64,000 bases of DNA from an uncultured Bacteroidales bacterium (GTDB taxonomy: Bacteria; Bacteroidota; Bacteroidia; Bacteroidales; UBA932), in NCBI GenBank assembly GCA_947303465.1, contig CAMYYI010000002.1, positions 1 through 64,000 on the forward strand, given 5' to 3'. Positions 6,712 to 32,892 of this stretch are shown piece after piece. Position 1 is the first letter of the stretch; each line of letters opens with the position of its first letter. The position numbers and the translations under genes are program-made. The notes under the pieces are model-generated. The model saw only the letters and a list, made by a program, of their open reading frames with translations, was not told where the DNA came from and searched no databases.

Positions 6712-6926
6712 CTAAACGCAAATAAGGTTGTACCTATCCTTGCTACTGATTATTCAGTTATAGTTCTTTGGGTAATACGCAAATTTAGCAAAAAAGGTAT
6801 AAAGTCGTATAAGAAAGTATAACAAATTGAAACACGATAATAAATTTGACAAAATGCTGTCATAAAATCTGACCTCGTGAAACAAAACGCCCTGACGTCA
6901 ATAGACATCAAGGCGAATAGTAGCTG

Positions 6927-7088
6927 TGCTGGGAAGGAGGCTCCCGGGGGCGTGGCCCCCCTCGGCCACGGGAAGAGGGAGGGGCCCGCTGAACACAAGT
7001 TATCGCGAAGCGATGACGCAGGAGGCAGTGGGAGGGTACGGAGTGGAGCGAAGCGGAACGGAGCCCCACGGGAGCCTCCTTCCTGGCA
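6927..7088. repeat. 162-bp palindromic element with imperfect terminal inverted repeats
   Basis: Left arm tgctgggaaggaggctcccg (6927-6946), right arm cgggagcctccttcctggca (7069-7088), 18/20 inverted match; internal modules gggaggggcccgc, gtgggaggg and gagcgaagcg also occur in the element inside the 31597-32892 gene. Confidence 0.75.
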
Positions 7089-7162
7089 CAACGGTGGAGA
7101 TTCTTCGCTTCGCTCAGAATAACAAGAAGAGTCTCCGGTTTCCACGGGGACTCTCTGCGGTA

Positions 7163-31245: not shown

Positions 31246-31318
31246 GGGGTATTAGCTCAGTTGGTAGAGCGTTAGGTTCGCAATCTAAAGGTCAGGGGTT
31301 CGATCCCCCTATGCTCCA
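31246..31318 (+). tRNA. tRNA-Ala (anticodon CGC)
   Basis: Cloverleaf by eye: acceptor GGGGTAT/ATGCTCC with G3-U70 identity pair, D-arm GCTC..GAGC, anticodon loop TTCGCAA, T-arm GGGGTTCGATCCCC; CCA not encoded. Confidence 0.93.
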
Positions 31319-31364
31319 CAAAATAGCAGCAGCAGGCAAAGCCTGCTGCTGCTATTTTGTGGAG
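31314..31364 (+). terminator. 24-bp perfect hairpin starting inside the tRNA 3' end
   Basis: ctccacaaaatagcagcagcaggc (31314-31337) - aaa - gcctgctgctgctattttgtggag (31341-31364). Confidence 0.75.
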
Positions 31365-31478
31365 CCTGTTCACCCCTGCTGCTTCGCAGCTGCCCCCAGG
31401 GGCGACCGGGGGCATGCCCCCGACCCCAGCTCTTCGGGCTCTTTTTGCGGAGCCTGTTCTCCCCTGCTGCTTCGCAGC
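31361..31478. repeat. Direct repeat pair (29/30 identical, 88-bp offset) flanking a GC-rich palindrome
   Basis: ggagcctgttcacccctgctgcttcgcagc (31361-31390) and ggagcctgttctcccctgctgcttcgcagc (31449-31478); cgggggcatgcccccg palindrome at 31407-31422. Confidence 0.8.
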
Positions 31479-31596
31479 GTTTTTCGTATGTGGGTGACTG
31501 TTAGCACATTGCGAATCTCCCTGAAGCTATTTTGCACCAGGGAGATTCGATAAGAAGTTGCTTATCAAAGGGTTGTAGAAAACGGGGTGAGGTCGG

Positions 31597-32892
31597 TCAG
31601 ATTTCTTTGCTGATGATGAGGCGGCGGGAGCCGGAGATGGTGCAGGCGAAGATGTGGACCGTACCGCCGGGCTTGACGCGGAGGCGGGAGCGCAGTTCTT
31701 CGGAACTCATAGGGACGCCGCGGGCCGTCACTTCCGCCTTAGGGTACCGGCGGCCCAAATCTTTCAATACTGAAGAAGCAAATGGCAGATTTTCAATAAT
31801 TCGCCAAAACTTACCAAAGTGAGATAACTGCTCATCGTACGTCATAATACAGATCCCGGGGCCCAGTCCGGACTTTACCATTGCCGCCGACGGCACAAAC
31901 AGCAAGTCAGAAGACAGCTCCGGCAAAACGGAGGCAGAAGTGGCCTCCGAGGACCGTGGCCGCCCATGGCCACCCCGATGGGCAGATGTCCCCTGGGGGA
32001 CTATAGGGGGAAACAACATCTCGGAGAGATGGGAGGGGCCCGCAGTTTCAGCTGTGGGAGGGATGAGCGAAGCGTAGTCTTTCGGAGGCCACTTCTGCGT
32101 AGTGAAGACGGAACCGTCTTCCGCCAATACTATCTTTGACACAGCGCCGCGCTTCCTTTCGTCCGCCGGGACCGTGGGTCCGGCGTTACTCAGCCGCAGC
32201 GGCGCAGCCGCGAGAATGGACGTAGCCGGGCCCTCGGTCCCGGCGGATGCAAACTCGCGGCGGCAGAGGCAGAGGAGTTCCTTGCATTCACCGTCGGCAC
32301 CCACCACATGAAGCTCAGAAAGCCACCTGTAAAGGCGTTTGCGAAGCATAGTGATATCTGCCATGGGAGACAGCTTAACCATCACCTCAGGCGCAATCTC
32401 AAGCAAATGCGGCATCAAAGCAACCACATCCGGGCTGCAGTCCTCCAGCAAAAAGACCTTGCGACCGGCCGCATCCCTGCGGGCAGGGTCGAGATAAATC
32501 ACATCGGGGCGGAAGGGCGCAAGCGCCTCCTTCCAATCATCTGAGGCCTCGGAGACATCATAGCAAGAGAAGCTGACATTGTCCAATCCGAGCGCAGCAA
32601 AGTTGCGGCGAACCGCCTCCAGCAAGACCAGGTCCCTCTCGTTATACCAAACCGCAGAAGCCCTCCTCGAAAAGGCCCAGCTGTCCGCCCCGAGCCCCCC
32701 GGTAAGGTCGGCCACACGGGCTCCGGCAGGCAGCAACGACGCCTTATACAGCGCCGTACTCTCGCTTGAGCACTGCTGAAGGTTCAAATCTTTAGGGACC
32801 TCTATATCAACACCTTCCCAAGACGGCAACTTATCCACAAGCTTCTTCGCCGCCGACTTGTCCAGGGACTTCAGTATATCAGCGAAACTCAT
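31597..32892 (-). CDS. Class I SAM-dependent methyltransferase with THUMP-like domain (PG_1098-like)
   Basis: ARVADLTGGLGADSWAFSRRA, VIYLDPARRDAAGRKVF, MVKLSPMADI, ECKELLCL; two unusual low-complexity inserts (see findings). Confidence 0.85.
   Translation of the reverse strand: MSFADILKSLDKSAAKKLVDKLPSWEGVDIEVPKDLNLQQCSSESTALYKASLLPAGARVADLTGGLGADSWAFSRRASAVWYNERDLVLLEAVRRNFAALGLDNVSFSCYDVSEASDDWKEALAPFRPDVIYLDPARRDAAGRKVFLLEDCSPDVVALMPHLLEIAPEVMVKLSPMADITMLRKRLYRWLSELHVVGADGECKELLCLCRREFASAGTEGPATSILAAAPLRLSNAGPTVPADERKRGAVSKIVLAEDGSVFTTQKWPPKDYASLIPPTAETAGPSHLSEMLFPPIVPQGTSAHRGGHGRPRSSEATSASVLPELSSDLLFVPSAAMVKSGLGPGICIMTYDEQLSHFGKFWRIIENLPFASSVLKDLGRRYPKAEVTARGVPMSSEELRSRLRVKPGGTVHIFACTISGSRRLIISKEI
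31934..32098. repeat. 165-bp palindromic element inside the methyltransferase ORF (in frame)
   Basis: Perfect 16-bp terminal inverted repeat gcagaagtggcctccg (31934-31949)/cggaggccacttctgc (32083-32098); 165 bp = 55 codons; internal modules shared with 6927-7088. Confidence 0.75.
32162..32247. repeat. 86-bp palindromic element inside the methyltransferase ORF
   Basis: tccgccgggaccgtgggtccggc (32162-32184) vs gccgggccctcggtcccggcgga (32225-32247), 21/23 inverted match. Confidence 0.75.

Follow-up and report, generated by a model that had tools for sequence, protein, structure and literature searches.

The methyltransferase gene at positions 31597-32892 of the window, the stretch of 64,000 nucleotides analysed here, carries a 165-nt segment that is bounded by an inverted repeat, which raises the questions of what this palindrome is, how it came to lie within a coding sequence and what maintains it there. 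The window derives from a 1.93-Mb, 81%-complete MAG of a Cryptobacteroides-like member of the Bacteroidales, and Cryptobacteroides, a genus related to Bacteroides, are abundant, free-living gut Bacteroidota with hundreds of species. An earlier note on this DNA had proposed that mobile palindromes of one family can lodge in genes without breaking the reading frame, in the manner of the Rickettsia palindromic elements (RPE). The analysis described here supports a dispersed family of that kind (family 1) and extends the picture by copy-specific arms, both core orientations at single sites, genus-wide spread and a second family in the same gene. It is considered probable that family 1 consists of non-autonomous, dispersed palindromic elements of the genus Cryptobacteroides, most likely once mobile, in which selection keeps the frame and template switching reshapes arms and core.

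The palindromic segment of the methyltransferase gene

The features of the window that are relevant to family 1 are the following.

6925..7090, plus strand: intergenic copy of family 1 (inverted repeat of 26 nt, 88%; model match 6928-7105, E=1.4e-12)
31597..32892, minus strand: host gene, encoding a PG_1098-type class I SAM methyltransferase whose C-terminal domain is THUMP-like (ORF; Pfam Thump_like PF18096; PDB 3ll7)
31934..32098, core reading on the plus strand and gene on the minus strand: palindromic element of family 1, adding 55 codons (covariance-model match, inverted repeat, empty-site orthologues)
31934..31950, no strand: left outer arm P1, copy-specific, GCAGAAGTGGCCTCCGA (inverted repeat; arms vary among copies and pair within a copy)
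31956..31973, plus strand: core hairpin P2, GTGGCC-GCCCAT-GGCCAC (covarying helix 2, GTGGCC/GGCCAC vs GTGTCC/GGACAC)
31974..32030, plus strand: extra stretch of ~57 nt between P2 and P3, present in only a subset of copies (e.g., L001-L004)
32039..32058, plus strand: core hairpin P3, CCC...GGG with a variable loop, flanked by GGGAGGGG and AGGGATGA (covarying helix 3)
32067..32073, plus strand: core mini-hairpin P4, GCGAAGC (helix 4)
32082..32098, no strand: right outer arm P1, TCGGAGGCCACTTCTGC (inverted repeat)
32162..32248 (approximate), no strand: insert of family 2, the second palindrome of the methyltransferase ORF, with arms TCCGCCGGGACC / GGTCCCGGCGGA, absent from most orthologues

The ORF encodes 431 amino acids and contains the segment without a stop, as had been noted before, and the bounding inverted repeat is indeed perfect (100% complementary), with arms of 17 bp rather than the 16 bp given earlier. 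A single covariance model matches both this element (31932-32116, E=1e-14) and the intergenic one, which bears out the sequence modules that 31934-32098 and 6927-7088 had been said to have in common. The predicted RNA fold of the window element reaches -86 kcal/mol, compared to -65.2 +/- 4.3 kcal/mol for shuffled sequences, and at the DNA level none of 200 shuffles matched the fold of either strand.

The sole PDB relative of the host methyltransferase, 3ll7 (E=8.9e-42), is without the palindromic segment and aligns in two stretches (17-210 and 357-427) that leave the insert region unmatched. Moreover, orthologues in five genomes (G317, G071, G315, G011, and G330; 63-73% identity) lack the segment and have a short loop instead; the segment is missing from most orthologues, and 31934-32098 is therefore an insertion.

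The same gene harbors at least one further family with the same build, which the earlier note had not mentioned. The stretch around 32162-32248 gave 16 blastn matches in the own genome (G000), corresponding to about a dozen places. This family 2 insert has a conserved core (GGGCCCGGCTACGTCCATTCTCGCGGCTGCG...CTGAGTAACGCC) and variable arms, is unrelated to the family 1 insert, and is found at the same place in genome G027 and in the other loop in genome G199. Families 1 and 2 thus occupy swapped loops of the methyltransferase in G199 and G000, and tolerant loops have therefore been hit repeatedly and independently. Elsewhere in the window, downstream of the tRNA at 31246-31318, the repeat cctgttc-cccctgctgcttcgcag occurs twice in the region 31320-31480, which also has a GC-rich hairpin.

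Distribution of family 1 and its place within genes

The suggestion to look for further copies in the source genome was borne out by at least 11 obvious copies with blastn and by 34 places (E<1e-7) with a structure-aware covariance model, which was built from 16 own-genome copies that are themselves among the 34. Neither of the two observations named earlier as refuting a mobile family was made, given these copies and the lack of the segment in most orthologues. Genomes of the genus carry family 1 in dozens of copies. Copies span about 122-216 bp by model match. In a survey of 101 genomes, with scoring limited to 32 candidates in each so that copy counts are lower bounds, the model matched 54, including 53 of ~61 genomes of the same genus (the own genome included) and one from another family. 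The named matches listed from a scan with the exact core were all Bacteroidales or Bacteroidia, from gut MAGs of ruminants and horses, and include Ca. Cryptobacteroides caccocaballi and Ca. Cacconaster scatequi (genera Ca. Cryptobacteroides and Ca. Cacconaster). A regular expression for the core underlies several of the counts in this paper, and the genomes are MAGs. Family 1 had no match in phage and plasmid collections, and a search of the open-access literature for palindromes in this genus or for this family found nothing relevant.

About 20 of the 34 own-genome copies are located inside long ORFs. Domain searches identified the hosts as trmB, tilS, tsaB, mtaB, fmt, uvrA, uvrD, polA, PBP1C, and genes for a TrmH-type methylase, a ferredoxin and an FAD protein, among others, and in at least 11 of them, including polA, uvrA, uvrD, fmt, tsaB, mtaB, and PBP1C, domains of the protein family flank the insert on both sides in the same frame. 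For example, residues 255 and 256 are adjacent in the crystal structure 5uai, at the position where fmt of the own genome has ~60 extra residues. One rRNA-methyltransferase-like gene (L078) carries two copies of the element (C4:77143-77280 and 77790-77928).

Among 156 distinct parsed copies from many species, 76 lie within a spanning ORF, a count with some circularity, since any spanning ORF is in frame by definition, and coding copies use all six frames, with on average only 2.8 of 6 frames open per element. Because of this circularity, sampling was extended by gene, with a search covering 282 genomes that have rsmA, and none of the listed matches contained a stop. Of 30 rsmA loci, 29 were readable; 12 of these carry a full element and one a partial element, several show scars or palindromes of another kind, and the remainder are empty; the frame is kept in all of them. 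In the in-frame scars (L393, L385, and L389) one arm or a piece of the core remains after an apparent deletion. The tolerant loops of fmt and the methyltransferase accommodate several distinct palindromic families. Other widespread short palindromes, encoding the peptides CHPERSEGS, CHSERSEES, and HSGLDPES, are also found in frame in related species (L338, L343, L345, L318, L418, and L422), in the same loops of fmt and of an EamA transporter.

On the basis of these open frames, the element is predicted to be translated as an additional protein loop. Removal at the RNA or translation level, by self-splicing or ribosome bypass, would leave the host protein unaltered and would suit essential hosts such as polA, rsmA, and fmt, but the element reads through in frame in every gene that allowed a check, which would be needless if it were removed, and no intron core was found with Rfam; this explanation is very unlikely. 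It is even harder to credit the family to assembly or binning of repeats in MAGs. Certain contigs do end at copies, and the methyltransferase gene of G027 is split at the element over two contigs (C18:1 and C12:42308), which illustrates that such repeats break MAG assemblies, but independent species and independent studies fill the same sites with matching arms and frames.

Paired arms, core orientation, and a proposed origin

The conserved part of family 1 is restricted to a core of ~75 bp, consisting of P2, P3, P4, and the linkers GGGAGGGG and AGGGATGA, whereas the arms of 20-30 bp are nearly random among copies and yet about 90% paired within each copy. Arm columns hold ~0.1-0.4 bit, except for five that adjoin the core. 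In 86 copies outside model building, all 24 arm pairs were doubly changed and 90% of the cells paired, and the covariation score was 0.623, as compared to 0.159 for shuffled and at most 0.112 for slid alignments, with the reservation that the alignment was fitted to the model and leans towards structure. A model-free ungapped search agrees on the paired arms (median arm score 14.5). Transfer of arms from copy to copy was rejected, as the similarity of arms was hardly related to that of cores, both in the own genome (rho -0.01, with only 17 copies parsed) and weakly in the whole set (rho 0.12). An origin of the arms by inverted duplication of the target was suggested by the EamA loci L266 and L289, but the empty rsmA sites are without arm sequence, and this origin was therefore not taken to be general.

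Comparison of six close pairs of elements at the same site (132 positions) revealed concerted changes in the arms, with 27 changes per side; at 16 sites both sides had changed, and 14 of these are fully paired. In the pair L166/L194, four of the five left-arm changes are clustered and are mirrored on the right arm.

The core itself is found in either orientation. In 17 groups of species the element occupies a shared site; within these groups, orientation agrees in 18 pairs and differs in 17, and many of these differences may stem from separate insertion events. For two cases, however, separate insertion is a difficult explanation. In rsmA, the core of L384 is forward and that of its close relatives L382, L383, L388, and L391 is reversed, at a common site, with closely similar arms (e.g., GGTACTGCCTCGCCGGA / GGGTACTGCCTCTCCGGA) and with the same uncommon core variant, CTCGTAAATGGG, which occurs in 8 of the 156 copies. 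The same flip pattern, with this variant, is displayed by L113 and L209, the flanks of which are 91-93% identical. The methyltransferase gene of the window may be a third case of a flip in place, given that the core in the G027 orthologue, the gene split over two contigs, is opposite to that in G000 and G004, with related arms and a reading that is still open. Since the presence of the rsmA element is patchy along the gene tree, independent re-insertion or gene exchange could account for part of the orientation changes.

Several genes that are open with both orientations at one site would also be expected if a site-specific invertase flipped the core and thereby produced alternative protein loops. 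Such an intragenic inverton is improbable, because the arms have no recognition sequence in common, the inverted repeats thus sharing no recombinase site, and because orientation differences are known between species only and not inside one population.

Besides its orientation, the conservation of the core requires explanation. Among 66 pairs of rsmA elements, identity is 92% in the cores and 55% at fourfold-degenerate sites of the host genes, and the cores of L382, L383, and L391 are identical despite 66-80% fourfold identity. Either the rsmA core is constrained at the DNA level, or it is replaced through conversion or re-insertion; template switching alone does not account for its surplus of conservation over fourfold sites. 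A more far-reaching reading, which is doubtful at present, is a new kind of mobile DNA in which only the folded core is inherited and each insertion obtains its own inverted repeat, with a core that is constant by virtue of a DNA-level function or of constant replacement by other copies, and with flips that give two unrelated open loops.

Core conservation beyond fourfold sites in rsmA, together with the strong covariation in P1-P3, could also indicate a structured regulatory RNA, whose cloverleaf-like fold would function at the RNA level, with selection for compensatory mutations that preserve the stem. The arm mispairs show a slight preference for G-U (G-T 85 vs A-C 50, of 1902) that may reflect RNA-level selection or alignment bias, but G-U makes up only ~4.5% of arm cells, and the G-T excess is weaker than expected if RNA pairing were the selected target. 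Moreover, the element occurs in genes in both orientations, so that the transcribed strand differs, changes in L166/L194 are clustered, and no Rfam model reached its gathering threshold; at E<=10 there were only matches below that threshold, the majority with miRNA models. A regulatory RNA is therefore regarded as unlikely.

The preferred explanation remains that of once-mobile elements with a frame under selection and template-switched arms and core. The element is built of a conserved core of ~75 bp with three hairpins inside long, copy-specific inverted arms, and its spread to new sites is inferred from the copy number and the empty sites. In the comparisons made, in which empty sites came from other species, no target-site duplication, transposase, recent transposition or autonomous copy was seen for family 1. 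A new copy would be readable in several frames because the core is GC-rich and stop-poor, and purifying selection would keep those copies whose length is a multiple of three and that lie in a surface loop able to tolerate them, where they are predicted to be translated. After insertion, template switching between the arms at replication would correct one arm to the other, by which arms would diverge fast across species and stay paired, and would occasionally flip the core in place. Template switching would thus jointly explain the paired, fast-changing arms, the clustered and mirrored changes, and the flipped cores. When imperfect inverted repeats undergo such switching, their arms are known to become identical and the spacer to be inverted, also in coding DNA (PMC8604942), and the process has been proposed to preserve hairpin stems (PMC8794818).

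Relation to known repeat systems

To our knowledge, coding palindromes have so far been viewed as a peculiarity of Rickettsia and Wolbachia. They are now encountered at high density in a genus of gut Bacteroidota and within its most conserved genes, which offers a natural experiment on selfish DNA as a source of new protein segments. In addition, the hypervariable paired arms and flipped cores may reveal on a large scale the template switching that is usually deduced from a handful of bases. In practical terms, gene calling, domain annotation, and MAG assembly are affected across the genus.

Among the described repeats of Bacteroidota, the MITEs BrickBuilt of Porphyromonas and MITECca01 of Cardinium (PMC9769881) are likewise short, non-autonomous, present in high copy and provided with inverted repeats. 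Prokaryotic MITEs are normally intergenic (PMC10969869), and the Bacteroidota MITEs found described are intergenic or mostly so and far less often gene-inactivating (BrickBuilt as cited in PMC10969869; MITECca01, PMC9769881). The terminal repeats of MITECca01 are conserved and link the element to a parental IS (PMC9769881), whereas the outer arm columns of family 1, with 0.1-0.4 bit, are not conserved among copies, so that family 1 lacks a feature by which MITEs are defined.

The REP/BIME repeats associated with RAYT (TnpA_REP, Y1) are dispersed and rich in hairpins, and four single genes of the own genome encode RAYT-like Y1 transposases (PF01797) of ~290-360 amino acids (L312-L315, on C7, C6, C27, and C14 of G000). 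REPs are extragenic and 20-40 bp long (PMC3733652). Family 1 flanks none of the four Y1 genes, and RAYT was rejected as the obvious mobilizer. At least some of these Y1 genes have their own short flanking repeats, which look different from family 1.

Inverted repeats tolerated within protein genes have also been described for the mitochondria of Nematomorpha, where the palindromes are perfect; these are mitochondrial, and the available part of PMC6649704 describes no conserved dispersed core. Template-switch inverted repeats (PMC8604942, PMC8794818) resemble family 1 in the homogenization of arms, the clustering of changes and the inversion of a spacer in coding DNA, but their spacers measure a few bp, whereas the inverted core of family 1 is ~75-130 bp long and is part of a family with dispersed copies.

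The closest likeness is to RPE and the protein-coding palindromic repeats of Wolbachia, which are ~100-165 bp long, palindromic and dispersed, and are located in frame in unrelated conserved genes as well as between genes. The insert in gmk of R. conorii has been shown to be translated (reviewed in PMC2229807, PMC10969869). Family 1 shares with RPE, for which dispersed palindromes of ~100-150 bp are characteristic, both the dispersal (34 copies of about 122-216 bp) and the in-frame insertion into unrelated conserved genes (polA, uvrA, fmt, tsaB, mtaB, rsmA, and others). It stems from a different phylum and is not known to have sequence in common with RPE, the likeness being one of build. Moreover, the terminal repeat of the Rickettsia and Wolbachia elements is conserved in the family, whereas the arms of family 1 are copy-specific, and family 1 makes use of all six frames. 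Family 1 goes beyond RPE in its nearly random yet paired arms and in a core that is found in either orientation at the same site.
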